Source of the DNA: Planctomycetales bacterium
GTDB taxonomy: Bacteria > Planctomycetota > Planctomycetia > Planctomycetales > Planctomycetaceae
Reading direction: 5' to 3'
DNA: 54,607 bases
NCBI GenBank assembly: GCA_026400835.1
Contig: JAPLOA010000053.1
Coordinates: forward strand, 1 to 54,607
This document shows, piece after piece, positions 3,304-41,100 of the stretch. Below the pieces are notes generated by a model. That model saw only the letters and a program-made list of their open reading frames with translations. It ran no database searches and was not told the DNA's origin. Within the stretch, counting starts at the first letter, position 1, and every line of letters starts with the position of its first letter. A program made the translations under genes and the position numbers.

Positions 3304-4752
3304 ATGAGAATCAGGCTGCCCATTGTTTTTGCTCTGAGTATGGCTGCTGGCTTTGTGCTTACGGCTGGTGGTGTTGAGTCTGCTCAGGCGGCTCCCCAGG
3401 ATGCCGCTGCAACTCAGAAGAAAATCAGCTATTACCGCACCGTTCGCCCGATTCTGCAGCGGCGATGTTCCGGGTGTCACTTTGATGGCAAACGGGAAGG
3501 CGGGCTGTCCGTCGTGGCCGTTACTGAGTTGCTAAAGGGTGGTGAAGCAGGCGCTTCGCTGACTGCTGGAAAGCCCGATGAGAGTCCTCTGATTCAACGC
3601 ATCTCCGGGGAGAAACCTGACATGCCGTTGAATAGCGAACCACTCACTGCCGAGCAGGTTTTGACTCTGCGTACGTGGATTGAACAAGGTGCCGAAGATG
3701 ACACTCCGGCTGATGTTGTTCAGGCGATCACCGCCGAGCATCCGCCGGTTTATTCGTCGCCGCCCGTTGTCACCTCGATGGATTATTCTCCCGACGGAAA
3801 GCTACTGGCCGTTTCGGGATATCACGAAGTTTTGGTTCACACTCTTGACGGAAGTGCGCCGCCGAAACGACTGGTCGGGCGATCTCAGCGAATTGAGTCC
3901 GTCGTCTTTTCCCCCAACGGGCAAGTTCTGGCTGTAGCCGGTGGCACGCCATCACTTTTTGGCGAAGTGCAACTCTGGAACGTGGCCGAAGGCAAGCTTC
4001 TGCATTCGATCATTCTTTCCTATGACACCATGTTCGGGTTGTCTTTCAATAATGATGGGACGCTGGTTGCCTTCGGTGGCGCGGATAATCGAGTGCGAGT
4101 CGCCAGGGTGGAAACTGCTGAAATCGTGATGCGAATGGATGCTCATTCGGATTGGGTTCAGGGTACCACGTTTTCTCTGAAGAACGATCACTTGATCAGT
4201 GTCAGTCGCGATCGTTCGATGAAGCTGGCGATCGTGGCCAGTGGTCAGTTTGTGGACAACATCACCAGCATTACCCCAGGAGCGCTCAAGGGCGGATTGG
4301 TGGATGTGCAGCGTCATCCAACTCAGGAAATGGTAATCTCCGTGGGGGCTGATGGGGAACCTCGCATGTACAAGATTTTTCGTGAGCAGGCTCGCCAGAT
4401 TGGCGACGACTTCAACCTCGTCCGAGCCTTTCAAAAGCTTCCGGGGCGATTGTGCGACGTGGATATTTCAACGTCCGGAAACAAGTTTATCGTGGGTTCC
4501 AGCACGGCGGTGGGCGGGGCGGCTCGCGTTTATCTGACTGAGGATCCCGCAAAGATTGTGGATATTCCGGGCCTGACATCCCCGGTGTTTGCGGTAAGTT
4601 TCCGGCCTGACGAACTTCAGGTTGCAGTTTCCGGTTTCGACGGCATGATCCGCCTGTGCAATGCAGAAACGGGGGCCGTTGAAAATACGCTCCCGGCCGC
4701 GCCGGTGACCCCGGCTACTCCGCCCGCTGCAACGCCTGCGGCCGGCGGTTAA
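3304..4752 (+). CDS. Secreted c-type cytochrome domain/WD40 repeat protein
   Basis: This is a 482-residue protein. A signal peptide (about residues 1-30, ending SAQAA) is followed by a planctomycete-type cytochrome c domain with the heme motif CSGCH at residues 55-59 and its usual C-terminal part (MPLNSEPLT, then LRTWIEQGA). The rest is WD40 repeats from about residue 155, recognisable by SPDGKLLAVSG, SPNGQVLAVAGG and similar blades, forming one propeller. The tail is Pro/Ala-rich. The start at 3304 is chosen because the signal peptide begins there; the upstream open frame lies in repeat DNA. It is probably transported and heme-loaded in the periplasm or equivalent compartment. The next gene encodes a PSD1 protein, the usual partner. 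Function of such pairs is not established. Confidence 0.88.
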   Translation: MRIRLPIVFALSMAAGFVLTAGGVESAQAAPQDAAATQKKISYYRTVRPILQRRCSGCHFDGKREGGLSVVAVTELLKGGEAGASLTAGKPDESPLIQRISGEKPDMPLNSEPLTAEQVLTLRTWIEQGAEDDTPADVVQAITAEHPPVYSSPPVVTSMDYSPDGKLLAVSGYHEVLVHTLDGSAPPKRLVGRSQRIESVVFSPNGQVLAVAGGTPSLFGEVQLWNVAEGKLLHSIILSYDTMFGLSFNNDGTLVAFGGADNRVRVARVETAEIVMRMDAHSDWVQGTTFSLKNDHLISVSRDRSMKLAIVASGQFVDNITSITPGALKGGLVDVQRHPTQEMVISVGADGEPRMYKIFREQARQIGDDFNLVRAFQKLPGRLCDVDISTSGNKFIVGSSTAVGGAARVYLTEDPAKIVDIPGLTSPVFAVSFRPDELQVAVSGFDGMIRLCNAETGAVENTLPAAPVTPATPPAATPAAGG

Positions 4753-4960: not shown

Positions 4961-7438
4961 ATGATCAAGATACCAAAAGCACTTCGCTCGGTCACATCGG
5001 CCTGCGGGATCGGACTTCTGTTGGCGTCGTCTGTGCTTGCTCAGGAGCAGCCAGCGCCGGAATCCACCGGGCCTGCTCGCACGTTTACTGCGATTGAAGT
5101 CTATCCGCCGGAGTTGACGCTGACATCGATACGAGATTCTCGCCGAGTTCTCGTGACGGGCGTGATGAGCGACGGGCAGCGGATTGATCTAAGTTCCAAG
5201 GCGACGGTTTCGACTCAGTCCCCGGTTTGTCAGGTTGACGCCAATGGCTTTGTGGCTCCTGTTGCTGCCGGTGAAGGGGTGATTACGGTTGAAGCCGAAG
5301 GACAGAAGGCAGAAGTCAAAGTTCATGTGACGTCGGCCGATCCTATGAATGTCGACTTCATCAGGGAAGTGAATCCGATCCTGAGCAAAGTTGGATGCAA
5401 CCAGGGAACCTGCCATGGATCTCAGGCTGGCAAGAATGGCTTTAAGTTGTCGCTTCGCGGATATGATTCGGTCTACGACTATCGAGTACTCGTGGACGAC
5501 ATTTCCGGCCGGAGGTTTAATCGTTCGGAGCCTTCTCAGAGCCTGATGTTGCTGAAGCCCACGCAGGGCGTGCCTCATGAAGGCGGATTTCTATTCGACG
5601 AAGAATCGCGCTACTACAAAGTTCTCGAGCAGTGGATTGCTGAAGGGTGCCAATACAAACCGGACGCGGCTCGCGTAACCGGAATTGAAGTCTACCCGCC
5701 GACACCACTGCTGCAGCTTCGTCATGATCAGCAACAGTTGATTGTGATTGCAAAGTATGCCGACGGGACGACTCGCGATGTGACGCGCGAAGCCGTCTTT
5801 GATGCGAGCAACTTCGAAGTCGCGACAGTCTCCAGGCAGGGCCTGATCACCGCCGTTCAGCGAGGCGAAGCGGCAGCTCTGGTGCGCTTCGAGGGCAATT
5901 ATGCGGCGGCACCGATTTCTATTCTGGGCAACCGTGATGGTTACGAATGGGTTCCTCAGCCGGAATACAATTACATCGATTCGCTGGTGAATGGGAAACT
6001 GCAGCGGATGAAAATCCTGCCGTCAGCCACTGCGGATGATGCGGAATTTCTTCGCAGAATTTCTCTGGACATAGCCGGAGTTCCGCCGACCAGCGAAGAG
6101 GTTTTGGCGTTCGTCGCGGATGCGACTGATCCCGTGGCGAAGCGAACTGCGATGATCGAGAAGCTGTTGTCCAGCCCGATGTATGTCGAACACTGGACAC
6201 TCAAGTGGAGCGACCTTCTGCTGAATCGCCGCAAAACGGTGACCGAGCGAGGAGTCTGGGCGTTCCGCAACTGGATTCGTCAATCAGTTGCCGCCAATAA
6301 GCCTTTCGATAAGTTCGCGAAAGAGCTGATCACGGCGAATGGGAGTGCCTATGAGAATCCTGCGGCGAATTACTTCCGGATTGCTCGCGAACCGAAGCTC
6401 GTCATGGAGAACATGACACAGGTGTTCCTGGGAACTCGCTTCAACTGCAATCAGTGCCACGACCATCCTTTCGAACGCTGGACACAGCGGCAGTACTATG
6501 AGCTGTCCGCCTATTTCGCTGACGTTGGGCGACGACCGCTGCCGGAAGGTGATGAGTTCATCTTCACCATGGCATCACCCACGGCCGTTGTGAATCCGGA
6601 CACCAATCAACCGGCTGATCCGAAGTTTCCGTTCGCTCATGCCGGAGCGGTCGATGCCGCCTCAACTCGTCGTGAGCAGCTGGCTCAGTGGCTGACGGCA
6701 AAAGAGAACCCTTACTTTGCCCGCAGTATCGTCAATCGGTACTGGAGCTACTTCTTCGGTCGAGGGATCATCGACCCTGTCGACGACATCCGCGCGGGAA
6801 ATCCTGCTTCGAACCCCGAACTGCTGGATGCGTTGACGAAGGATTTTGTGGACAGTGGATACGATCTCAAGAAGCTGGTTCGCACGATTTGTAATTCGGC
6901 GACATACCAGAGAAGTCTGGAAGCGGGGCAGTGGAACGAAGATGACACAATCAACTTCTCCCACGCATTGCCGCGACGACTCTCTGCAGAACAACTCTAT
7001 GACGCCATCATTCAGGCGACGGGTGCTCCGCGAGCATTGCCGGGGGTTCCCGCCGGATTCCGTGCTTCCGAGTTGCCGGATTCGGACGTCGAAGTGGCGT
7101 TTCTGGATATGTTCGGTCGTGCTCCTCGCGAATCACCATGTGAGTGCGAACGAACCAGCGACGTCAGCCTTGGCCAGACTTTGAACATGGTGAACGGGCC
7201 GACAATCGGTGATGCAATCGCTCATCCACAGGGAGTCATCGCAAAGACAGTCGCCGCTGGTGCGACGAACGAGAAGCTGATTGAGACGATCTATCTGTCA
7301 GCTCTGTCTCGTAAGCCATCGGCTGAGGAGTCAGCTCGAGCTGCTGAATATTTTGCGACCGCTGGCGAGCCAAAAGCGGCCGGTGAAGACCTGATGTGGG
7401 CTTTGATTAACAGCCCGGGATTCCTCTTCAATCGCTAA
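4961..7438 (+). CDS. DUF1549/DUF1553 (PSD1-type) protein with Ig-like domains
   Basis: This is an 825-residue secreted protein (signal peptide to about residue 27, ending SVLAQ). It carries two bacterial Ig-like (BIG2-like) segments, about residues 40-125 and 245-325. Between them lies a cytochrome c-like motif, CNQGTCHG at about 147-154, spaced CX4CH rather than CX2CH. DUF1549 (about 335-530) includes a second heme-like motif, CNQCHDHPF at 495-503, and DUF1553 (about 565-820) includes SIVNRYWSYFFGRG and a terminal SPGFLFNR. The domain order is that of the planctomycete PSD1 family, whose biochemical role is unknown. It follows the cytochrome/WD40 gene on the same strand with a 208-base spacer that holds a repeat, so co-transcription is possible but not certain. 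No DUF1501 gene follows. Confidence 0.9.
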   Translation: MIKIPKALRSVTSACGIGLLLASSVLAQEQPAPESTGPARTFTAIEVYPPELTLTSIRDSRRVLVTGVMSDGQRIDLSSKATVSTQSPVCQVDANGFVAPVAAGEGVITVEAEGQKAEVKVHVTSADPMNVDFIREVNPILSKVGCNQGTCHGSQAGKNGFKLSLRGYDSVYDYRVLVDDISGRRFNRSEPSQSLMLLKPTQGVPHEGGFLFDEESRYYKVLEQWIAEGCQYKPDAARVTGIEVYPPTPLLQLRHDQQQLIVIAKYADGTTRDVTREAVFDASNFEVATVSRQGLITAVQRGEAAALVRFEGNYAAAPISILGNRDGYEWVPQPEYNYIDSLVNGKLQRMKILPSATADDAEFLRRISLDIAGVPPTSEEVLAFVADATDPVAKRTAMIEKLLSSPMYVEHWTLKWSDLLLNRRKTVTERGVWAFRNWIRQSVAANKPFDKFAKELITANGSAYENPAANYFRIAREPKLVMENMTQVFLGTRFNCNQCHDHPFERWTQRQYYELSAYFADVGRRPLPEGDEFIFTMASPTAVVNPDTNQPADPKFPFAHAGAVDAASTRREQLAQWLTAKENPYFARSIVNRYWSYFFGRGIIDPVDDIRAGNPASNPELLDALTKDFVDSGYDLKKLVRTICNSATYQRSLEAGQWNEDDTINFSHALPRRLSAEQLYDAIIQATGAPRALPGVPAGFRASELPDSDVEVAFLDMFGRAPRESPCECERTSDVSLGQTLNMVNGPTIGDAIAHPQGVIAKTVAAGATNEKLIETIYLSALSRKPSAEESARAAEYFATAGEPKAAGEDLMWALINSPGFLFNR

Positions 7439-30143: not shown

Positions 30144-31643
30144 TTACATCAACTGGGTTTCCGCGATATGAATGGCCTTCAACATCGCGCGGGCTTTGTT
30201 CTGGGTTTCCCTGTATTCCATCTCGGGAACACTGTCGGCCACGATCCCGGCTCCGGCCTGGATGTAGATCATGCCGTCCTTCATCACCAGAGTTCTAAGG
30301 GCAATGCAGGTGTCCATGTTGCCGGTGAAGTCGATGTAACCAACTGCTCCGCCGTAAGGACCTCGCTTTTGCGGTTCGACGGCGTCGATGATCTCCATCG
30401 CTCGTACTTTTGGCGCGCCGGAAACGGTACCGGCAGGAAGGCCTGCTCGTAAGGCTTCGATCGCCGAGAGTCCTTTTCGAAGCTGACCCGAGACATTCGA
30501 GGTGATGTGCATGACGTGACTGTAGCGTTCCACAACCATGGCGTCGGTGAGTTTCACTGAGCCGTATTCTGCGACTCGTCCCACATCGTTGCGAGCAAGG
30601 TCAATCAGCATAACATGCTCGGCCCGTTCTTTGGGATCCGCGAGCAGCTCTTCGGCGAGATCACGATCTTCCTGAGGCGTCTTGCCACGTGGGCGAGTTC
30701 CTGCGAGAGGTCGAATCGTGGTTTCTCCGTCCTCAACCCGCACCATGATTTCCGGCGAGCTGCCGACCAAATCGACTTCCGGCGTTCGCAGCAGAAACAT
30801 AAACGGGCTTGGGTTCACCATCCGCAGTGAACGGTAAACATCCAGCGGCTGAGCTTTGCTGGGGTACTCAAATCGTTGACTGATCACGACCTGAAAAATA
30901 TCGCCGGCCTTGATGAACTCCTTGCACTTAGCGATCGCATCATGAAACTGAGGCTGAGTAAAGTTGGAGCGAACCTCCGGAGTCGGTTCCACAGTCAGGT
31001 CGATATCAGTGAGTTGAACATCGCCAGTACTTATTGAAAGTTGCTGACAGATCACATCGAGTCGCCCTTCGGCCTTCGCGCGGGATTCATCGAGTTTGCC
31101 GTTCGCTGTATCTGCCAGCACGACGACCAGAACTACTTTGCGGATGTGGTCAAACACAACCATCGAACTGTAGAATGCGAACGTCATGTCCGGAAGATGG
31201 CGATCATCAGCAGGAACGTTCGGCAGATTCTCGGTGTAGCGGATGACATCATAGCCTGCGAAGCCGACGGCTCCGCCACAGAAGCGAGGCAGCGCTGGCA
31301 GCGTGGCCGCATGATACCTGGCGACTTCGGCGTCGAGCACTTTTAGTGGATCGTCACAGGAGAACTCGCGTTTCTCCACGCCGATGTGATCGATCGTAAT
31401 CTGTTTGCCGGTTGCCGAGAGAATCAGAAACGGATCACTGCCCGCAAAGCTATAGCGACCAACTCGCTCACCCCCAACGACGCTCTCAAACAGAAATGAC
31501 CACGGCCCGGTAGCGATTCGCTGGTAGGCTGTCACGGGGGTCAACGTGTCGGCCGTCAGTTGTCGGTAGACCGGAACAAACCGCGCGTGGCTGGCAAGCT
31601 TTTGAAATTCGGCGGATGTCGGCAGTGAGGTCGGTGACTTCAT
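30144..31643 (-). CDS. trpE: Anthranilate synthase component I
   Basis: This 499-residue enzyme makes anthranilate from chorismate, the first step of tryptophan synthesis, with a glutamine amidotransferase partner (TrpG) that is not in the window. The N-terminal feedback region is visible ([17 protein letters not shown], about 45-61). The chorismate-binding domain fills the rest, with [49 protein letters not shown] and [16 protein letters not shown]. The start at 31643 gives the usual length; the open frame upstream to 31790 overlaps the neighbouring gene and lacks conservation. No leader peptide or attenuator was seen. Confidence 0.95.
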
Positions 31644-31728
31644 GAAAATGCAATGTCCTGGAGATACGATCCGGAAGAGTTCCGGTACAGTGATTCTGTG
31701 CGCAGCCTCAATTTTTGCCGCTCGAAGA

Positions 31729-32184
31729 TTAGCCGTGCAAAGACAGTATTCTGACAGATTGCGAGATCTGTTCAAACACCGAGCGAACATCAGTCAGTTC
31801 ATGGTCCGTTCCCTGCCACCACGTCAGCAGACTCATGTCGGATGCTCGGACACTGCTCAACGCGACGCAGTTCAGCAGTTCGAAGCAGTAAAACTGGAGT
31901 TCTCGACAGACCGCCGGCATTGTTGCCAGAGTACCCTTGGTGATCTGAACTTCCGTGTCCTCGTACTCTTCCTGAAACGCTTCAACGCAGGAGGTCACGA
32001 CTTCTTCGGCTCGCGGACATTCACGCAGGATTCGGAGCGCCCAGAAGCATGCTCCGTCTGCGGATACGGTTAGCAGGACATCCTCGCCGTCGACTTCTTC
32101 CGTCAGTTCCCAGAAACCCGGGTAGTCAAACAGAACACCGTGTCCTTCATATCGCGTCAGACATTCTGACGAATCAATCGCCAT
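31729..32184 (-). CDS. Conserved small protein, function unknown
   Basis: This 151-residue protein has no signal peptide. Its layout ([36 protein letters not shown] near the start, a helix, then [17 protein letters not shown]) suggests a single alpha/beta domain reminiscent of the DcrB/PsbP-like fold, which is only an impression. It lies 85 bases upstream of trpE on the same strand and could be co-transcribed. The composition and strict frame support a real gene. ATG at 32184. Confidence 0.65.
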
Positions 32185-32420
32185 TGGTTACTCCAGCCAC
32201 TTTGCGGATTATCGCCGCGATCCCGTGAGGTCCTCAGTCAAGAGGGCATATTTCAATGGGTGAATCATAACCAGCGGGGGAGATCGCATCAAATTGACGT
32301 CGGAAAACCTGGAATTGAGTAAGCTCCAACTATTTTCTATTCAGTTCACGATGCGGGCGGCCTATTTTGGCGAGATGCGAAGTCACACACAGTCGTGGAA
32401 CGATTCAGTCGTGGAATAAG

Positions 32421-32506
32421 CGGAAGGCAAGGGATTCGAACCCTTATCTCCGGGTAGAGGCACGCATTAGCAATGCGGCCCAGCGAACCATATCTGGCTG
32501 CCTTCC
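32421..32506 (-). tRNA. tRNA-Ser(GCT)
   Basis: Acceptor GGAAGGC/GCCTTCC, anticodon loop TTGCTAA (anticodon at 32469-32471), long variable arm as in class II tRNAs, discriminator G. No encoded CCA. It is last in the array in transcription order. Confidence 0.9.
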
Positions 32507-32518
32507 GAGTGGTGTCAG

Positions 32519-32600
32519 TGCGTTGGGCAGGAATTGAACCTGCACAGCCGTCTGGCGGTTGCTTTACAGGCAACTGGGCTCACCTATGCCCGGCCAACGC
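32519..32600 (-). tRNA. tRNA-Tyr(GTA)
   Basis: Acceptor GCGTTGG/CCAACGC, anticodon stem GTTGC/GCAAC with loop CTGTAAA, long variable arm, discriminator A. No encoded CCA. The GTA anticodon makes it a Tgt substrate. Confidence 0.9.
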
Positions 32601-32614
32601 GAATTGTGCCATCT

Positions 32615-32666
32615 TGAGCCTGAGGCGCTAGCCGAATGTTCTTGCTCGGCTAGCGCCTCAGGCTCA
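32615..32666. repeat. Palindromic repeat (TGAGCCTGAGGCGCTAGCC family)
   Basis: Perfect 21-bp arms at 32615-32635 and 32646-32666 around 10 bases. It sits between the tRNA-Tyr and tRNA-Ala genes, inside the tRNA array. Confidence 0.85.
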
Positions 32667-32677
32667 TGAATACTTAA

Positions 32678-32748
32678 TGGACCGCCGCGGATTTGAACCG
32701 CGATCTTCCGGATGCAAACCGGATATCTTCCCATTGGACCAGCAGCCC
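32678..32748 (-). tRNA. tRNA-Ala(TGC)
   Basis: Anticodon stem TCCGG/CCGGA with loop TTTGCAT. The acceptor GGGCTGC/GCGGTCC contains the G3:U70 pair that defines alanine tRNA. The D-arm is short and weakly paired, total 71 bases, unlike the usual alanine tRNA. No encoded CCA. Confidence 0.85.
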
Positions 32749-32782
32749 GTGTTGAATAGATTTGAGATTTTGAATCTGTCAG

Positions 32783-32857
32783 TTGCGGGGGCAGGATTCG
32801 AACCTGCGGACTCGTGGTTCAAAGTCACGAATTTCTACCAACAGAAACTACCCCGCA
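32783..32857 (-). tRNA. tRNA-Gln(TTG)
   Basis: Acceptor TGCGGGG/CCCCGCA (U1:A72, as in many glutamine tRNAs), anticodon loop CTTTGAA. The innermost anticodon-stem pair is an A-C mismatch. No encoded CCA. Confidence 0.85.
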
Positions 32858-32891
32858 GTAAACAGCTGTCATCGGGGAGATGTCAGCTTGA

Positions 32892-32963
32892 AGTGTCTCG
32901 CGGGAATTGAACCCGCCTGTTCGGGGTGGAAGCCCGATGCCTTTGCCTCTCGGCCAGAGACAC
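32892..32963 (-). tRNA. tRNA-Gly(TCC)
   Basis: Acceptor GTGTCTC/GAGACAC, anticodon stem TCGGG/CCCGA with loop CTTCCAC, discriminator U as usual for bacterial glycine tRNA. No encoded CCA. Confidence 0.88.
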
Positions 32964-33023
32964 ATGTCATTCGTCATCAGCAATCAATCATGTCACGAGA
33001 TCGATTGCTGAGTTCGAAGTCAG

Positions 33024-33108
33024 CGGAAGGAGAGGGTGTTGAACCCTCAAGGCCTTGCAGCTCATCCGTTTTCAAGACGGTTGCCATCGCCAATTGGCTT
33101 GCCCTTCC
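33024..33108 (-). tRNA. tRNA-Ser(TGA)
   Basis: Acceptor GGAAGGG/TCCTTCC, anticodon loop CTTGAAA, long variable arm, discriminator G. It is the second serine isoacceptor of the array. No encoded CCA. Confidence 0.9.
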
Positions 33109-33157
33109 GAATGATTCTTCACGTGGTGCTCATTACGGCCGCGTAAAGAATGAATAA

Positions 33158-33230
33158 CTGCGGAGGCAGGATTCGAACCTGCATGCAACTCCTTAACAGG
33201 GAGGTGCCTTACCAGTTAGGCCACACCGCA
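33158..33230 (-). tRNA. tRNA-Asn(GTT)
   Basis: Anticodon stem CCTCC/GGAGT with loop CTGTTAA; U1:A72 and discriminator G fit asparagine tRNA. The acceptor TGCGGTG/CTCCGCA has a U-U mismatch at pair 6:67. Candidate Tgt substrate. No encoded CCA. Confidence 0.88.
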
Positions 33231-33306
33231 ATGTTGTCCAATGAAAATTACCGGATCAATTTCCATGGCTCACGATACAAGGTTTGCTGACTGTCGTATT
33301 GCTTTC

Positions 33307-33336
33307 ATCACAACCCGAAGCATCAGCGAGGGATCG
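33307..33336. repeat. Half palindromic repeat (CACAACCCG family)
   Basis: Matches the left half of the element at 1018-1105 (ATCACAACCCGA, then GCGAGGGATCG). The right half is absent. It lies in the gap that divides the tRNA array. Confidence 0.6.
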
Positions 33337-33385
33337 CCAGAACAAGTTGCGCGTTTTCAGGCCCGGAGGGTCGACAAATCCAATG

Positions 33386-33404
33386 CCGGTGGCGTGAGCC
33401 ACCG
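33386..33404. repeat. Short palindrome (CCGGTGGC family)
   Basis: CCGGTGGC and GCCACCGG are complementary arms around a 3-base GTGA-type centre. A sister copy in the opposite reading lies at 33649-33668. Both are in the gap of the tRNA array. Confidence 0.6.
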
Positions 33405-33582
33405 GTATGCGAACAAGAGGAATCTGAGGCCCGGAGAGGCTGTGATTTTTTCAAAACGGGACATTTTGGGGACGACCTTTTTGTCGTCTTGGCCATCAAT
33501 CGTCGATCCTGAGCGATCCTATCAGGTCGTTTTTTTGAGGCTGGGATGATAAATGGATCGTAGGTTGAAAAACTCACATTCT

Positions 33583-33668
33583 CGGAGGGCCGACACAAGG
33601 ACGGATGTGCCGGCCCTTCAGGCCTGAATCGCAGTGTTTTTCTAAAATCCGGTGGCTCACGCCACCGG
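33583..33668. repeat. Palindrome cluster
   Basis: A hairpin made of GAGGGCCGACAC and GTGCCGGCCCTTC (33583-33619) is followed by a CCGGTGGC/GCCACCGG palindrome (33649-33668). There is no coding capacity. Confidence 0.55.
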
Positions 33669-33716
33669 CAGAGGATGTGCCGGGCTTCCAGCCCTAACCG
33701 AAAAATGCAACTTCAG

Positions 33717-33795
33717 AAAACGTCAGCGAGGGATCACCAATTCAGTTAACAGGATCAGGATGCACAATCCCTCACTAACGCGTCGGGTTGTGATG
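33717..33795. repeat. Palindromic repeat (CACAACCCG family), left end truncated
   Basis: Contains CGTCAGCGAGGGATCA on the left and AATCCCTCACTAACGCG then TCGGGTTGTGAT on the right, as in the 1018-1105 element, but lacks the outer left end. It lies 30 bases from tRNA-Lys. Confidence 0.65.
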
Positions 33796-33825
33796 ACTGA
33801 CGACGGTGAGCGAATAACGAACAAT

Positions 33826-33897
33826 TGGGGTCGGACAGATTCGAACTGTCTCCATTCCGATTAAAAGTCGGACGTGCTGCCGTTACACCACAACCCC
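33826..33897 (-). tRNA. tRNA-Lys(TTT)
   Basis: Acceptor GGGGTTG/CGACCCC, anticodon stem TCCGA/TCGGA with loop CTTTTAA, T-arm GACAG/CTGTC, discriminator A. No encoded CCA. Confidence 0.9.
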
Positions 33898-33987
33898 GAA
33901 TGAGTTGTGGAGCCCGTTTCAATCGTGGACGAATTGCGAACATGAGATCACCTGTGAAGTAACAATGCTGAACGGGATAGATGTAAA

Positions 33988-34058
33988 TAGCTCGGGACGG
34001 AATTGAACCATCACCGCCGCCTTATCAGAGCGACATGCTGCCGATACACCACCGAGCT
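33988..34058 (-). tRNA. tRNA-Ile(GAT)
   Basis: Acceptor AGCTCGG/CCGAGCT, anticodon loop CTGATAA. The anticodon stem has G-U pairs at both ends, and total length is 71. It is not in an rRNA spacer, where bacterial tRNA-Ile(GAT) is normally found. No encoded CCA. Confidence 0.85.
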
Positions 34059-34073
34059 GTGATGGGGCACGAG

Positions 34074-34146
34074 TGACGCGTGTGGGATTCGAACCCAACC
34101 TGACCAGAGTGAAAGTCTGGTAACCTCACCAGAAGTCGAACGCGCC
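34074..34146 (-). tRNA. tRNA-Glu(TTC)
   Basis: Acceptor GGCGCGT/ACGCGTC, anticodon stem CCAGA/TCTGG with loop CTTTCAC. The outer T-stem pair is a U-C mismatch and the D-stem relies on G-U pairs. No encoded CCA. Confidence 0.85.
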
Positions 34147-34179
34147 GATGAGAACTGAATGGCACGAGCCGAATAGCAG

Positions 34180-34251
34180 TGGGGCAGATGGTGCTCGAAT
34201 CCATCTCCTCTGGTCTTCAGCCAGATGCTTTGCCGTCTAAGCTACTGCCCC
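34180..34251 (-). tRNA. tRNA-Phe(GAA)
   Basis: Acceptor GGGGCAG/CTGCCCC, anticodon stem TCTGG/CCAGA with loop CTGAAGA. The last T-stem pair is an A-A mismatch. It is first in the array in transcription order. No encoded CCA. Confidence 0.87.
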
Positions 34252-34282
34252 GCGTTTAGCTTCAGTGACGCACTCCGGGCAC

Positions 34283-34314
34283 AAAAAAAGCCCGGTGATT
34301 GTGACACCGGGCTT
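34283..34314 (-). terminator. Intrinsic terminator (minus strand)
   Basis: A perfect 10-bp stem, 34288-34297 with 34305-34314, 7-base loop; on the minus strand it runs into seven T residues. It lies between the amidohydrolase gene and the tRNA array, so the array needs its own promoter within about 30 bases or is reached by read-through. Confidence 0.85.
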
Positions 34315-34572
34315 CGAAAGGGATTCCGAACACGACCGAGAGTCACAGGCGCAAGTGCTGATTGGAAAAAGAATAGGCGGCAGCGACGCCATTCTGTTCC
34401 TGTTCAGCTTCTTGTCCTTTAAAACTCGATCGTGAAATCAACATGTAAGCACGAACATCCCTTTGAAAGTTGTCCTGCAGCGACAGGAGCAAATGTGTAA
34501 CACGGGGAAGACGCTGCTTTGTGTGAAATGGTTCGCGGTTTCTTGAAAAATCTTTTTTGTCTTCTTCGTAGT

Positions 34573-34671
34573 GCGGACTTCAGTCCGCTTTGCGCGCAGG
34601 GCTGTTGCTGGTGGGCTCGTTGGCTGAAGCCAACGCTACGACGAAAGAAGTTCGTTGGCTGAAGCCAACGC
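34573..34671. repeat. Palindromic words (GCGGACT and CGTTGGCT families)
   Basis: GCGGACT-TC-AGTCCGC at 34573-34588, then two identical 19-base copies of CGTTGGCTGAAGCCAACGC at 34618-34636 and 34653-34671. Each copy is itself palindromic. The rest of the spacer 34315-34742 shows no gene. Confidence 0.75.
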
Positions 34672-34742
34672 CAAAATTAATCCACGGAAGAAAGAGAATC
34701 GCGCCGTCGCCTGTGGATTGCCAATAAACGAATTAACGCTCA

Positions 34743-36341
34743 TTACTTTGCCGTCTTGCGGATTGATTTCCCGTTGAGCACTCCTGTCGCCTGACCGTCG
34801 TACACGGCAAACTTTCCGGCCACCAACACGTAGCGGATTCCCGATGGCGTCAGATAGGGCTGGTCAAAAGTGGCTCGGTCGCGAAACGTTGCCGGATCAA
34901 AGATCGCAATATCGGCGACGAGATCTTTCTTCAGGAGTCCTCGATCTTTCAACCCCATGATCTCAGCCGGTAACCCTGTCGCACTTCGAATCGCGGCCGC
35001 CAGAGAAAGGACGCCTTGCTCAATTGCATATCTGCCAATCTTGCGCGGGAAAGTGCCGAACGATCGTGGATGAGGCTGGCTGGACGTTGGCACCTTGGCT
35101 CCTCCGTCGCTGGCGGTTGCGACCCATGGCAGAGGCATCGCCATTTGCAGATCGTCTTCATGCATGCCGAAGTTGATGACTGAAGCGCCGCCGTTGCGTT
35201 CAATCTCCAATACCACATCAACAACCTCACGTTTCTGAGCGGTGGCGATGTCATCAATCGACTGCCCGATCCAGCTTCGATTCAGACTGCAGGAAGCAAG
35301 CTGAATGCGTGACGAAGCTTCCAGAGTCTTCGACACCTCGGCTCGAATGCGACTGGCGGTCTCGGCATCATTTAGTCGCTTCTTCAGTTCCTCGCGACCG
35401 CCTTCACGACACCACGCTGGCAGAAGCGTCGCCTCCAGAGAGGTACTCGAAGCCGTGTATGGATACTGATCGGCCGTCACTTTGATACCATCCTCGCGTG
35501 CCTTCTCAATCTGATCCACAGCCAGTCGCAGCGTACCCCAGTTAGTTTTACCAGTGGCTTTGAAGTGCGATACATGCACCGGCAGTCCAGCTTCTTTGCC
35601 GATGCGAATTGCTTCGAGAATACTTGGGATTAGTTCTGAGCCTTCGCTGCGAATATGACTTGCATAAATTCCGTGATGTTTTGCGACGACCTTCGCGATC
35701 TCAATGAGTTCCTCGGTCTCCGTCAGCGTTCCCGGGATATAAATCAGTCCGGTGGACATACCAAAGACACCATCCTGCATGGCCTTGTCGGCAAGCGATC
35801 GCATCTGATTCAGTTGCTCGTCGGTGGGCTTTCCTCCACTCTTGCCCATGACTTCACTGCGCAGACTTCCTTGCGGCAGTAGATGAGCAATATGAGTGCC
35901 GGCGCGTTGTTTGTCGATGGTGTCGAAATACTTTGCGGCATCCACCGGACCGCTACCACAGTTGCCGGTGACGACCGTCGTGCATCCCTGCAGCAGGTAA
36001 TTAATATTTGCACGAGTATCTCGGTCCAGGATCGGATCGTCACTATGGTTATGCAGATCAATAAAGCCCGGGCAGATCACAAGGCCTGAGCAGTCAATAC
36101 TGATATCCGCTTCGGGAGGCTTCTCGGGGCCAGCGATGACGATCATTCCCTCGCGGATCGCCACGTTGCCGATGACCGGTTCGGACCCATCGCCCGTATG
36201 AATGATCCCGTTCGTCAGCACGATGTCTGCTCGCACGCCATCAGAGGTGTCAGTTGTCGCTGGTGACTGTGCGATCAATGCTGGATTACTGAGCGGCCCA
36301 ATAAGAACGATCAGAAACGCGACGAAATGACGCACGACCAT
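34743..36341 (-). CDS. N-acyl-D-amino-acid deacylase family amidohydrolase (secreted)
   Basis: This 532-residue protein resembles D-aminoacylase, which removes acyl groups from N-acyl-D-amino acids. A signal peptide covers about residues 1-25. Metal-site residues are visible: H97 and H99 in IDLHNHSDD, C128 in TGNCGSGP, the His of IYASHIRSEG and the His of PVHVSHFKA. The catalytic Asp is probably that of WVATASDGG near residue 435. The ATG at 36341 is preceded by GGAG 8 bases upstream, which fixes the start against the open frame to 36446. Export fits a role in salvaging D-amino acid derivatives, for example from cell-wall material, but the substrate is not known. Confidence 0.9.
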   Translation of the reverse strand: MVVRHFVAFLIVLIGPLSNPALIAQSPATTDTSDGVRADIVLTNGIIHTGDGSEPVIGNVAIREGMIVIAGPEKPPEADISIDCSGLVICPGFIDLHNHSDDPILDRDTRANINYLLQGCTTVVTGNCGSGPVDAAKYFDTIDKQRAGTHIAHLLPQGSLRSEVMGKSGGKPTDEQLNQMRSLADKAMQDGVFGMSTGLIYIPGTLTETEELIEIAKVVAKHHGIYASHIRSEGSELIPSILEAIRIGKEAGLPVHVSHFKATGKTNWGTLRLAVDQIEKAREDGIKVTADQYPYTASSTSLEATLLPAWCREGGREELKKRLNDAETASRIRAEVSKTLEASSRIQLASCSLNRSWIGQSIDDIATAQKREVVDVVLEIERNGGASVINFGMHEDDLQMAMPLPWVATASDGGAKVPTSSQPHPRSFGTFPRKIGRYAIEQGVLSLAAAIRSATGLPAEIMGLKDRGLLKKDLVADIAIFDPATFRDRATFDQPYLTPSGIRYVLVAGKFAVYDGQATGVLNGKSIRKTAK

Positions 36342-36554
36342 GGGGACAACTCCAAGTGTTTGGCGATCCAAAGCGGTGGAGTCGGCAGCATAGACCGCGA
36401 GATCGATAATGAGAACTCTATGCACGAAACAACGTCGCATTGTCAAGGAGCAAAAACTGCCGATGCCGCCTTATCGTGGGCAGAAACGGCGGTTCGGTGA
36501 TCCAGCGGAGCTGCAGAATTTGCCGGACGAGGCGAAGCTTTGGGAGACAGGGGA

Positions 36555-36616
36555 GCCATGGAAAGAATTAACGCCTCCCACATCTCATGATTCCCGTCAA
36601 TTCCTATCACTCACAG
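36555..36616. repeat. Upstream flanking repeat of the four-helix-bundle gene
   Basis: Starts GCCATGGAAAGAAT and contains CATGATTCCCGTCAATTCC. The segment at 37389-37446, directly after the gene, aligns to it in the same orientation at roughly 75% identity by eye. Confidence 0.6.
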
Positions 36617-36699
36617 TTCTCAGACACCAGTCCGCTAATATGATGTTGTGAGGGTGTTACAATACGCAGGCCTGTAGTGCTATATTAGGTGATGGTTTA

Positions 36700-37386
36700 A
36701 TGTTGCTAAGTGCTGGCAACGGTCAGGGGATTGCTGTGAATAGTGACTCGCATGGGAATGATGGGAAGAAGGGGAGTGATGGGAGGCATACTTCACATTC
36801 TTCTCATGAATCTCATCAGCCTATTCAACGCCCCATCATCCCGCCTCGTGGCGACTATCAAAAACTGCTGTCCTTTCGAAAGGCTGAAGTTGTCTATGAC
36901 ATTACATTTCGCTTCGCACAGAAGTTCTTGTCAAAGGGTGACAGAACCGTTGATCAAATGATTCAGTCAGCACGATCGGGAAAGCAAAACATTCTTGAGG
37001 GCAGCAAGGCGGCCACGACTTCCAAAGAGACCGAGATCAAGCTGACGAATGTTGGCCGAGCCAGCCTGGAAGAACTACTGGCCGACTACCGTGACTATCT
37101 GCGAGTCCGAGATCATCAGGTATGGGACAAGGATTCGAGAGAGGCCCGCTACGTTCGTGATCTGGGCCGCCGGACTCCGCAGACCTTTGAGTTATATCGG
37201 GAGTTTGTCGAAACTCGCCCGGCGGATGTGATCGCCAATATTGCAATCTGTCTGATTCACCAGACCAATTATTTGCTGGATCAGCAATTGAAGACGCTGG
37301 AGAAAGAATTCATCGAACAAGGCGGCCTGCGCGAGCGGATGACCAAAGCCCGGTTGAACTATCGCAATCAGCAACCCAAGGGATAA
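36700..37386 (+). CDS. Four-helix-bundle protein (S23/Avd-related, 'suffix' subfamily)
   Basis: This is a 228-residue protein. Residues 1-50 are low-complexity and rich in His, Gly and Ser (HGNDGKKGSDGRHTSHSSHE). Residues about 51-195 match the four-helix-bundle family of 23S rRNA intervening-sequence proteins and the diversity-generating-retroelement accessory protein Avd: LLSFRKAEVVYDITFRFAQ, then MIQSARSGKQNILEG and VGRASLEELLADYRDYL. The Lys/Arg-rich surface suggests nucleic-acid binding. A tail (ERMTKARLNYRNQQPKG) ends the protein. No reverse transcriptase or variable-repeat target lies nearby. The gene is bounded by related repeats (36555-36616 and 37389-37446), and its own 5' end is written in the same purine-rich words, so the unit looks like a small element. 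ATG at 36700; an internal GTG is possible. Confidence 0.85.
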   Translation: MLLSAGNGQGIAVNSDSHGNDGKKGSDGRHTSHSSHESHQPIQRPIIPPRGDYQKLLSFRKAEVVYDITFRFAQKFLSKGDRTVDQMIQSARSGKQNILEGSKAATTSKETEIKLTNVGRASLEELLADYRDYLRVRDHQVWDKDSREARYVRDLGRRTPQTFELYREFVETRPADVIANIAICLIHQTNYLLDQQLKTLEKEFIEQGGLRERMTKARLNYRNQQPKG

Positions 37387-37388
37387 AG

Positions 37389-37446
37389 GCCATGGGAGGA
37401 ATGAAGCCAGCATCCCATGCTTCCCCTCAATTCCCATTCTTCCCAG
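37389..37446. repeat. Downstream flanking repeat of the four-helix-bundle gene
   Basis: Begins two bases after the stop with GCCATGGGAGGAAT and includes CCCATGCTTCCCCTCAATTC. It is the partner of 36555-36616. It is also partly complementary to the gene's own 5' coding tract (about 36750-36790), so the transcript ends could pair. Confidence 0.6.
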
Positions 37447-37467
37447 CCCAATTTCAATCCACAAACG

Positions 37468-37495
37468 AAAAAAGCCGCGAAATTCGCGGCTTTTT
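37468..37495. terminator. Bidirectional intrinsic terminator
   Basis: GCCGCGAA (37474-37481) and TTCGCGGC (37483-37490) form a perfect stem flanked by A6 on the left and T5 on the right. It serves the four-helix-bundle gene on the plus strand and tRNA-Val on the minus strand. Confidence 0.9.
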
Positions 37496-37526
37496 CCAGG
37501 ATTCGTCATCGTGCCTTTAAGGCCAA

Positions 37527-37600
37527 TGGGCGCTGAGGGACTCGAACCCCCGACCCCCTCGGTGTAAACGAGGTGCTCTAACCAACTGAGCTAAGCGCCC
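37527..37600 (-). tRNA. tRNA-Val(TAC)
   Basis: Acceptor GGGCGCT/AGCGCCC, D-arm TTAGCTCAGTTGG, anticodon stem CCTCG/CGAGG with loop TTTACAC, normal T-arm with TTCGAGT, discriminator A. All stems are well paired, in contrast to several tRNAs of the array 3 kb away. No encoded CCA. Confidence 0.95.
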
Positions 37601-38185
37601 GGTGTCTGCTTTTCAGACAGCCGGAAGTATCGACGGTTCGGGGGACGTTTTCAAGTCAGCCTGAAAAGTCGTCCAGAATCGTGCCAGTTTTGGTGATACG
37701 GTGCCGTCAAAATCCGCCAAATACGCAGCGACTGCTCAATCGGGGCGGGTTTCTCGGCGTTTGCTCAATCGTTGAATTCTGACTGAGCGCAGACTGTGGT
37801 TGGCTGCAGCCGTGCCGAATTTACGGCGACCCTCGGACTGCTGACAGGCTGTTGAATCAGTGGCTTTTCACAACCCGACACGTCAGTGAGGGATCAAAAT
37901 CGCCGCGTTTTCAAAAGCGATTCCTCGCTGACGCAAAGGGTTAAGATGAAATCCAACAGCGGCTAAGCCCAAAGTTGGTGGACGTTAGTTCGCTGTGAGG
38001 CTTGACTTCAGACCGGCTGGGAGTGTGCAATTTGTGGTGGAAGAATTCGCGGGACGCCGGTTCTTTGGTTAGTAGAGTTTCGACGGAGCCGACTTAAGTT
38101 CGCCGTCGCCTGCGGCTTGCCGTTAAACGAGTTTCAAAACAGACTGCTGGCAGCATTCGGTTTATGGTGCGGAGAATTTGACGTC
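37601..38185. other. Intergenic region upstream of the giant WD40 gene
   Basis: A 585-base spacer holding the palindromic repeat at 37868-37945 and a single repeat arm near 38104-38130. The promoters of tRNA-Val (minus) and of the large gene (plus) should lie here. No other gene is seen. Confidence 0.45.
37868..37945. repeat. Palindromic repeat (CACAACCCG family)
   Basis: CACAACCCGACACGTCAGTG on the left and TTCCTCGCTGACGCAAAGGG on the right, with a worn right end. It is the same family as at 1018-1105, 4781-4852, 33307 and 33717. Confidence 0.7.
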
Positions 38186-41100
38186 ATGCGAAAAATGATT
38201 GTGCTGCTGGGGATGCTGGTTGTTGGCTCGACGCACTCTGACTTAAGTCTGGCCGGGCCGCCGATTACGATTGAGACGATCCAGCGCGCGGAGCCGGTGA
38301 ACTTTGCGAAGGAGATTCTGCCGATCCTGCAGAAGAACTGTCTGGCCTGCCACTCGGCCGGTGAGAGACAGGGCGGCTTGATTCTGGAGTCTGCTCAGGG
38401 AATTCTCAAAGGAGGCGACACGGGAGTTGCTGCAGTTCCGGGGAAAGGCGTCGAGAGTTTACTGCTGAAGGTCGCGGCGCATCAGGTTGAACCCGTGATG
38501 CCGCCGGAAGGAAATGATGTCGCAGCGAGCAATCTGACTCCGAAAGAACTTGGATTGCTCAAGCTCTGGATTGATCAGGGAGCGATTGGCTCTGGCGGAA
38601 TCGATTCGTTGTCGCCAAAACAGATGAATCGCCTGCCGCGCAGATTGGTTGCGGTACAGAGCCTGGCGTTGACTCAGGATGGCCAGTACGTGGCGTTCAG
38701 TCGAGGCAACGAGATTCTGCTGCATCATGTTCCGACCGGTCAGTTGTTGACTCAACTGACGGACCCCGTGCTGGCAGATTCGTCCGGAGGAGCTCATCGG
38801 GATCTTGTGCAATCGTTGACTTTCAACGTTGACGGTGACTTGCTGGCGTCGGGCGGTTTTCGAGAAGTCAAGTTGTGGCGGCGACCAAAGGACGTGCAGA
38901 AGCTCAGCATCGCGGCTGGAGCTACCGCTTCGGTGATGGCGATCAGTCCGGATCGCAGTTTGATCGCTGCCAATGGACCGAACAACACGATTCAACTGCG
39001 ACGCACGGTCGATGGAGCCGCCGGGCCGGTGATGAGTGGTCACACCGATGTCGTGACGTCGTTGCGGTTCACCGAGGATGGAAGCAAATTGATTTCAGGA
39101 TCTCTGGATCAGTCGATTTGCGTCTGGAACGTTACTGACGGTGCGATGTTGGGCAAAATTGAAACGCCGACACCGATCAGTGTTGTTGAACTGGTCAGGA
39201 TGGCAGAGGCCACAGAACAGAACCCCGCACCGCGGTTCTGGATCGTCTCGGGCGGCGGTGATAATGTGATGAGGGTTTGGGAAATGCCGGCCGCGACGCA
39301 TCGCTCGCCGTCTTCCATCGCAAATCTGGAACGCACCATATCCAGTCGCGATACCCGTTTGCTGGCAATGCTGGACAATGTCGGGAACGTTCGCATCATT
39401 GCGGTGCAGCCGACACCGATGAATGTCGTCGAGAAAGACGTGGCCGCGTGGAAAGTTGAAGGAGGAATCTCCTCACTGGCGTTTGTCCGTCGCGCGGGGA
39501 CGGCCGAGCCGAATGCGGACAACCTGAAAGACAGCTACAACGTGCTGATTGGAACTCCTGATGGTTTCGTGCAGTTATGGAGTTTGGCTGAGCAGAAGAT
39601 GCTGAACGCGTGGAAGGCCGGTGGCTCGCCAATTCGATCCGTGTCCGGCAGCGTGGACGGGACCATGGCCGTTTCCGGTGCGGAGGACGGCTCGACGTAC
39701 TTGTGGAAGATGAATCAGCCCGCCGCGGTGCCTTTGGAAACATCCGCGGGAGAAACTTTTGCGGTGACAATCACAAGTCCATCTCGAAAACAGATCGCCA
39801 GCACGGGACTGAAAGACGGTCAGCCTGCGATCGTGATTCGCAGCACGGAGACCAACAAGATTACTCACGTGTTAACCGGACATGCGGGCTCGATCTTGTC
39901 ACTGGCCTTTTCAAACGATGATGCTCGACTTGTGTCGGGCGGAGATGACCGCACGCTGCGAATCTGGGACCTGCGGAACGCAGCGACGCCGGAACTGAAG
40001 AAGATCGAAGGGCTGGCGACCAATGTTACGGCAGTGGGAAGTAACGCTGATGGAAGTCAGATTCTGTCAGGCTTTGGGGATAACAGTCTTAAGCTGTTCA
40101 GCACAGCCGATGGAATGGTGTTGAAAGAGTTCGCTGGTCATTCGGCTGGCATTGTTGCGACGGGGTTCTGGAACAATCAGCCGTATTCGGTTAGTCTCGA
40201 TTCCACCGTTCGTTTCTGGAATGCCGCGGATGGGGCACAAACTCGCGCATTTAATCTGCCAACTCCACCGACGGCTGTTAATGTGTCCAATGATGGGCAG
40301 CGGATGGCATTTGGTGCCGCGGATAATCAGGTGCGGATTTATCAGACCGACAATGGCGGAGTGTTGCAAACTCTGCAAGGTTTTGCGGCGGCGGCGACAG
40401 GGCTCAACTTCTCTGTGGATGCTCAATTGCTGTCGGTCGTTAATGCTGATGGCCGAGTCTCAATCTTCAATGCCGCGACGGGGCGGCTTCGAGAAGCCTT
40501 TGTTGACTCCAAAGTGAAGTCGGCTTTGTTCAATGCCAATGCGGCGAGCGTTTTCGTTGCCCGAGCGGTGGATGGAATGACTGTTGAGCCGATGCGATTC
40601 ATGCAGCACCTCGACGGAAGCACGCAGCCGATTCGAGCAACGGCGTTTCATCCGAACAATCAAACGGTTTATGTGGCGGTCGCTGATGGCACTCTTCGAG
40701 GTCATTCTGTGCAAAATGGTCAGGCGACTTTTTCGACCAGTCACGGGGCGGCGATCAATGATCTGGCGATTTCCATGGACGGGCAGGTTCTGGCTACGGC
40801 CGGCGACAACAATGTGGTGAGGCTGTGGAACGCGTCCGGAGCGGCCGTCGCCCCGCAACAACTGGCCGGATTCAATGGGCCTGTTCGGCGAGTTGCCTTC
40901 TCTGCAGATGCCAGGCAGATTCTGGCCGTCGCCGATGGTAATAAGCCGACGGCTCAACTGCACGACTTGCCGACGGGAAACTTGTTGCAAAAATTCTCGG
41001 GTCATGTGGGAACTGCGGCAGGATGTGTGCTGTTTCCACCAGTGATGGATGCTGTTTCACAAGTCCCGGGAACGATGGCGCTGACGGCATCACCCGGCGG

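Follow-up and report, generated by a model that had tools for sequence, protein, structure and literature searches.

We analysed a stretch of 54,607 nucleotides that is the whole of one contig (JAPLOA010000053.1) of a Planctomycetales bacterium, here called the window (genome assembly of 7.58 Mb in 112 contigs; this genome is labelled G000), and found that it carries an array of eleven tRNA genes preceded by a short leader open reading frame (ORF) and an intrinsic terminator. The tRNAs, their conservation, the leader ORF, the terminator and a mutually exclusive pairing with some covariation are seen directly in the sequence. We consider it fairly likely that the array is a shrunken, selected remnant of a long, divergent, supernumerary tRNA array widespread in Planctomycetota, and that it constitutes a reserve decoding set under the control of ribosome-mediated transcription attenuation. 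Judging from their conservation and from the apparent switch before them, the odd-looking tRNA genes are probably a working reserve and not decayed leftovers. The leader and a second array in the same assembly go beyond a preliminary description of this DNA, which had reported the eleven tRNAs and their stem mismatches and had left open whether they are a relic or a working second set.

The leader ORF (34343-34444, minus strand; MLISRSSFKGQEAEQEQNGVAAAYSFSNQHLRL) has 33 codons and a TGA stop, and counterparts of it are found before arrays in other genomes. Between this ORF and the first tRNA lies the intrinsic terminator (34287-34315, minus strand), an 11-pair stem with a T-run whose 5' arm motif is at 34301-34311. 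The leader stop codon is contained in a candidate antiterminator strand (34336-34346, minus strand; GTGACTCTCGG), which can form pairs at 9 of 11 positions with the 5' arm of the terminator, so that a short leader ORF stands before a terminator and the antiterminator and terminator pairings exclude each other. The predicted energies of the two segments in the window leader were -17.4 kcal/mol (antiterminator) and -19.4 kcal/mol (terminator). Attenuators of the trp type combine a leader ORF, a terminator and an alternative pairing strand overlapping the leader stop codon. The window leader has a leader ORF, a terminator and alternative pairing over the stop, an anatomy that reads as that of a trp-type, ribosome-controlled attenuator; unlike the trp type, it precedes tRNA genes instead of a biosynthetic operon and has no run of one amino acid, so that it would report general translation failure. 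In the mechanism that we propose, transcription would start upstream of the leader ORF, at a putative start site. During healthy translation the ribosome would reach the leader stop within the antiterminator strand and mask that strand, whereupon the terminator would form before the first tRNA and the array would be off. With ribosomes stalled further up or absent, the strand would be free to pair with the terminator 5' arm, and polymerase would read through and make the array tRNAs. The leader anatomy thus predicts an array that is silent and induced by translation stress; its transcription, the direction of the switch and the charging and use of its tRNAs are what we infer from this arrangement.

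The case for the terminator is made by conserved sequence and not by a simple terminator scan, which did no better than shuffles (4 found, 3.7 expected). Reading the hairpins of the 38 arrays with a tRNA-Phe and sufficient upstream sequence, we found a terminator-like hairpin 8-126 nt before the tRNA-Phe and on the same strand in 32. In 1.84 Mb of fetched DNA the 5' arm motif had 47 occurrences, where ~3.5 would be expected by chance, and all but one (L331) were at array leaders, counting repeated fetches and reverse readings of palindromes. A strict hairpin pattern matched in 54 of 397 genomes of the class compared with 7 for a reversed control, and its two matches in the own genome lie one before each array. 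Of thirty strict-pattern matches that were fetched, 22 are followed at a distance of 10-234 nt by array tRNAs on the same strand; an uninterrupted T-run was present in 21 of the thirty, 19 of these before array tRNAs. Three further matches before arrays had a broken T-run or none adjacent, and six matches had neither a T-run nor an array behind them.

We aligned 37 leaders picked by the terminator motif alone. Repeated fetches and the reverse reading of the palindromic hairpin L383 were excluded, as were L079, L083, L272, L292, L332 and L335, whose 3' arm fell outside the pattern; 18 other leaders were examined separately. Of the terminator cells in the alignment, 98.5% were paired, and 3 pairs showed compensatory changes. 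An upstream strand, GTGACACYYGG, can pair with the terminator 5' arm in 85.7% of cells over 11 pairs, and its first 8 pairs were paired in 285 of 296 cells (slid controls, 29.2-48.2%). The stop codon of the upstream frame lies inside this strand; TAA replaces TGA in 4 of the 37 leaders together with a matching change in the terminator arm, which makes one compensatory antiterminator pair. The frame ending at the stop was open for at least 34 codons in 37/37 leaders versus 7/37 and 8/37 for the other frames, an ATG start was in range in 30/37, and many leader peptides end in LRL or a variant of it. At the locus of the window array, the leader is retained in all three species that have it (G000, G015 and G004). 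A scan of 31500-38200 with Rfam, which bears on a T-box reading of the leader, gave no T-box match, and that reading was dropped, as was one of the leader as a boxA element.

By ARAGORN the minus strand holds exactly eleven tRNA genes at 32420-34251, which confirms the eleven genes on one strand over 1.8 kb first reported; such a density is no chance finding. In transcribed order, all on the minus strand, they are tRNA-Phe(GAA) (34179-34251), Glu(TTC) (34073-34146), Ile(GAT) (33988-34058), Lys(TTT) (33826-33897), Asn(GTT) (33157-33231), Ser(TGA) (33023-33108), Gly(TCC) (32892-32963), Gln(TTG) (32782-32857), Ala(TGC) (32678-32748), Tyr(GTA) (32518-32600) and Ser(GCT) (32420-32506). By the ORF list, the region overlaps only mechanical ORFs of 91-124 aa. 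The four stem mismatches named in the preliminary description are all real: T-stem 53-61 (A.A) in Phe, T-stem 49-65 (T.C) in Glu, acceptor 6-67 in Asn and the innermost anticodon-stem pair, 31-39, in Gln. The outermost anticodon-stem pair is also missing in Ser(GCT), Ser(TGA) and Asn (27-43 in Asn). At least one non-pairing position was thus present in 6 of 11 array tRNAs, compared with 9 of 38 dispersed tRNAs and 4 of 46 in G018, the complete genome of a relative of the same family. Scores against the Rfam tRNA model RF00005 were 43.1-66.1 bits for nine array tRNAs and 50.6-77.6 bits for dispersed tRNAs of the same genome among 64 matches, in a scoring that covered 150 of 287 candidates; a comparison of this kind had been proposed in the preliminary description. 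The two array tRNA-Ser were not among the RF00005 matches and matched the tRNA-Sec model below its gathering score. A lone tRNA-Val(TAC) outside the array (37527-37600, by ARAGORN), counted here with the dispersed genes, scored 71.2 bits and has standard pairs throughout, as had been noted.

Comparison with G015, which has ten of the eleven tRNAs at the same locus, revealed that the shared tRNAs differ at 12 of 762 sites (1.6%) and the spacers at 76 of 428 (17.8%; Fisher p 4e-24). Phe, Glu, Asn, Gly and Gln are identical, four of these five being mismatch carriers or their neighbours, and Ser(GCT) differs at 5 of 86 sites. Of 29 distinct array tRNA-Phe, 25 are non-pairing at 53-61, as are 16 of 42 distinct array tRNA-Glu at 49-65. 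The Asn acceptor pattern and the Gln anticodon-stem mismatch, recurring in just 4 of 41 and 1 of 34 distinct array tRNAs, respectively, are by this count lineage features. The G3:U70 pair is the alanine identity pair; it is retained in the window tRNA-Ala and present in 68 of 81 distinct array tRNA-Ala, compared with 10 of 1227 array tRNAs of other kinds. All eleven window tRNAs have the discriminator base that is usual in their canonical counterparts. Together, these comparisons indicate that the array is under selection and not decaying freely, and that the stem mismatches are no mark of decay.

To place the window array among others, we used a pattern of the array tRNA-Ser(GCT). It matched 89 stretches in named genomes, and of 80 titles shown 76 were planctomycete taxa, three said only 'bacterium' and one belonged to another phylum, the pattern having been built from planctomycete arrays and giving no even survey of phyla. 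Counts of tRNAs over 99 genomes were set aside as a measure of prevalence, with scored candidates limited to 44 per genome. The 93 loci with the array tRNA-Ser motif in named genomes and IMG/VR hold 2 to 42 tRNAs each, and the long arrays have isoacceptors for all 20 amino acids. With Ser(TGA) counted as Ser(CGA), 10 of the 11 window genes are colinear with the order of the 42-tRNA locus L321, which none of 200,000 random orders matched; taken at face value, 9 of 11 are colinear, matched by 18 of 200,000 random orders. Ser(TGA) occupies the place of Ser(CGA) in the long arrays, and Ser(CGA) is its closest gene in L321 (similarity 0.87 vs 0.71). All ten window tRNAs with a comparator of their own were closer to arrays of other families (0.73-0.82; 102 tRNAs from 7 loci in genomes of other families) than to their own dispersed counterparts (0.55-0.74), and are by this measure not recent copies of the host's own tRNAs. 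The similarity argument is weakened by Ile, which lacks an own comparator and is as close to the G018 canonical gene (0.68) as to other-family arrays (0.67). A version of this test with a larger array set was set aside because it mixed families, and was redone with other-family arrays only. These orders and similarities identify the window array as a short, mostly colinear remnant of a long array found across Planctomycetota.

Nine of the 11 array tRNAs have a gene with the same anticodon at another place in the assembly, in eight cases an ordinary gene and for Lys(TTT) an interrupted one. As read from the sequence, the canonical tRNA-Lys(TTT) on contig C104 (L260, about 4260-4670, minus strand) has its anticodon loop interrupted by ~300 nt of inserted sequence, and the gene is likewise interrupted in G015 and G004. 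Up to E 1 the insertion matched none of the intron families of Rfam; it is presumably spliced out. The idea that the array Lys(TTT) is the sole copy and replaced an essential tRNA was dropped when a 33-base partial match and the sequence revealed the interrupted gene. Searches of the 112 contigs revealed no canonical Ile(GAT) or Ala(TGC). They are probably present in this genome but unassembled, because G015, with the same array, carries the canonical pair, and because the pair lies directly upstream of the 23S rRNA in G018 and G001. A canonical copy for each isoacceptor, a check suggested at the outset, was therefore found for nine in the assembly and for the other two in G015; such duplication of dispersed housekeeping anticodons is a trait of supernumerary arrays of the Anabaena kind. 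G018 covers all 20 amino acids with 46 tRNAs and has no array.

The second array of the assembly lies on the 15.4-kb contig C6 (L031 1652-5206), assigned to this organism by binning and by near-identical array tRNAs in the same genus. ARAGORN found 21 tRNAs there, and one extra covariance match is at 5050-5120. This array has a leader ORF (L031 1021-1137) and a terminator of its own. The two arrays have only the GTA and GCT anticodons in common and jointly represent 19 amino acids, Cys being the one missing. A Stop(TTA) tRNA called by ARAGORN (L031 2031-2102) was rejected as a suppressor: compared with G001 it is a tRNA-Asn with an altered anticodon arm, with no evidence of recoding. Between Val(GAC) and Ser(GCT) the C6 array carries an EF-Tu gene (L031 3138-4313, 391 aa), the product of which passes the EF-Tu equivalog cut-off and is 65% identical to the canonical tuf product on contig C84. 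Two matches to the array EF-Tu were found in 14 of 100 genomes, this one included. In an unrooted tree 13 second-copy EF-Tu separated from 13 canonical-context EF-Tu (support 0.978), and the array EF-Tu of C6 and G064 were sisters (support 0.998). EF-Tu as a general array gene was rejected: only 2 of the 13 second copies are inside arrays, in each case flanked by Val(GAC) and Ser(GCT), and EF-Tu is present in 1 of the 93 array loci, plus C6. A switch I change considered as an array feature was dropped, the same residues being found in canonical planctomycete EF-Tu; the residues that we take to contact the T-stem look unchanged in the array EF-Tu. The second EF-Tu lineage of the class (including L093 and L094) lies mostly outside arrays, with no tRNAs nearby.

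The window array is flanked by trpE, a conserved 151-aa ORF and an amidohydrolase-like ORF, none of these three being a phage gene. trpE was found in 17 of 18 genomes of the genus. Three of them, G000, G015 and G004, have the array upstream of trpE and the 151-aa ORF; 13 others have no tRNA in at least 622 bases upstream of the 151-aa ORF, and in G005 too little sequence precedes that ORF for presence or absence to be read. The array was therefore either inserted before the three split or lost in the other genomes. G015 lacks the tRNA-Ala, and G004 retains Phe, Glu and Ser(GCT) only.

Several observations weigh against attenuation of a reserve set. The argument for expression of the array comes from sequence anatomy, no promoter was recognised upstream of it, and the free leader is predicted to fold into the terminator state. 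Two of the 30 fetched pattern matches have a T-run but no tRNA nearby. The stop was located by a score favouring TGA or TAA, so that its presence in 37/37 leaders is partly built in; the start is GTG or TTG in 5/37, with none in range in 2/37; and the lone compensatory antiterminator pair may be a single event in one clade. Among the 18 leaders examined separately, a helix overlapped the stop in 11 and not in 7. Between close pairs, third codon positions account for 31 of 73 differences, a weak bias (p 0.065), and the peptide sequence itself may for this reason be of little importance. Most of the array was lost in G004, and this part is hence dispensable there.

This loss, together with that of Ala in G015 and with an order of which eleven genes remain and which reaches 42 elsewhere, is also what would be seen if the array were a relic, i.e. 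a horizontally acquired cluster that is degenerating and dispensable, as planctomycete clusters are described in the available part of PMC4807772. The lower scores of the array, the non-pairing positions in six of its tRNAs and the duplication of most anticodons point the same way. We nevertheless regard a relic as unlikely: the tRNAs diverged about a tenth as much as the spacers, with five genes unchanged, the Phe mismatch is shared by most array tRNA-Phe, identity features are kept and the leader persists in all three species. Between the alternatives left open by the preliminary description, a working set thus fits better, yet the gene loss in G015 and G004 is real. The same description had likened the array to the divergent duplicate tRNAs of phages and mobile elements. 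A divergent, largely redundant second set, such as plasmids and phages are reported to have, is indeed present, but a phage carrier was not seen at the locus. An array carried or kept by phages, plasmids or integrative elements for their own translation would suit its occurrence in 3 of the 17 genomes with trpE and absence from 13, the integrase N-terminal fragment and transposase-like ORF on contig C6, the array tRNA-Ser motif on four IMG/VR contigs and the HNH endonuclease genes that recur in arrays. Against such cargo stand the flanking genes, the common locus in three species at which the tRNAs are conserved, and the similarity to phage and plasmid records, which is limited to single tRNAs and to at most 5% of the query among the matches listed; we hold it to be less probable still than a relic. 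Finally, the array tRNAs could serve a non-ribosomal or otherwise specialised task, for example through a dedicated EF-Tu, and not general decoding. EF-Tu genes inside two arrays, the recurrent T-stem mismatches and the array tRNA-Leu, of which 164 of 196 are no longer than 80 nt and lack a long variable arm, are compatible with this. It seems very improbable, as EF-Tu is missing from most arrays and the long arrays have isoacceptors for every amino acid, as one would expect of general decoding.

The reading that we prefer, a selected reserve set under attenuation, can be extended to the phylum more tentatively, and here we see a possibility that falls somewhat short of even chances: Planctomycetota may carry an inducible spare translation kit, consisting of a near-complete second tRNA set, an own EF-Tu in some lineages and a leader-peptide attenuator sensing translation health, which would be released when housekeeping tRNAs or ribosomes are disabled, e.g. 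by tRNA-cleaving toxins or antibiotics. Several phyla have large supernumerary tRNA arrays, which are usually interpreted as mobile cargo or decay. If the attenuation reading is true, the coupling of array transcription to translation through a leader would provide arrays with both a function and a switch, would account at the RNA level for a stress induction of the kind reported for Anabaena, and would mean that annotation flagging such tRNAs as degenerate misleads.

The trn operon of Anabaena sp. PCC 7120 was reportedly studied by Santamaria-Gomez et al. 2021. As described in the available part of PMC10272220, it is a supernumerary array that is silent in normal growth and induced by translation-targeting antibiotics; control is by the repressor TrcR at the promoter, and that part mentions no attenuator, leader, terminator or EF-Tu. 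By this description the planctomycete array resembles it in being supernumerary and in the stress induction that we propose, and differs in the leader attenuator proposed in place of a repressor. Clusters of divergent tRNAs in planctomycetes are already in print: the accessible text of PMC4807772 presents them as degenerate clusters, presumably gained by horizontal transfer, that are partially degraded and may be dispensable. The arrays described here share with them the phylum, the divergent tRNAs and an Ile(TAT), found in those clusters and in our long arrays; unlike that account, we found selection, kept identity features and a candidate leader switch, which is what the present analysis adds. 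In the portion of PMC5966550 consulted, tRNA array units of Mycobacterium are dense, with HNH endonuclease genes nearby and translation-factor genes in some, and are defined by at least 20 tRNAs in one region and at least 2 tRNAs per kb. The window array, with eleven tRNAs, is below this size and the C6 array, with 21, above it; both reach the density (11 in 1.83 kb and 21 in 3.56 kb). The Mycobacterium plasmid array L147 is likewise dense, with HNH genes and short tRNA-Leu (77 and 78 nt). Its similarity to the window tRNAs (0.59-0.71) is no higher than that of ordinary tRNAs, and the L147 stretch that was fetched lacks the leader motif. A limited literature search returned no report of a leader attenuator for a tRNA array, of an EF-Tu within one or of a selection test.

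Genes embedded in the arrays encode HNH endonucleases, Band 7 proteins, 23S-IVP proteins and one RNA ligase. The HNH endonuclease cluster was found in 17 loci, Band 7 proteins of the L304 type in 11 and an unnamed family without a Pfam match in 9; recurrent genes of these three kinds, in or beside arrays, are at L320 1320-1916, L304 3581-4840, L332 4654-5511 and L321 4872-5663. The RNA ligase gene (PF09414; L270 6972-7751) lies inside a 34-tRNA planctomycete array and suggests a link with tRNA repair. The IMG/VR contigs with the array tRNA-Ser motif, L355-L358, are classed as viral and hold 7-32 tRNAs. The best plasmid match of the window array is the Glu gene of a Variovorax plasmid (L146), on which five tRNAs lie near a glutamate-tRNA ligase family gene and a peptidyl-tRNA hydrolase gene. 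Within the window array, the gap between Lys and Asn (33240-33826) has no tRNA gene and holds a dispersed repeat family that, by sequence comparison, recurs at many other sites in the genus, with many copies in this genome, G014, G015 and G004; it lies inside the array in G000 and G015 alike. Beside the lone tRNA-Val, 36700-37386 encodes a weakly 23S-IVP-like protein (under the Pfam cut-off), of the same family that is embedded in several arrays.

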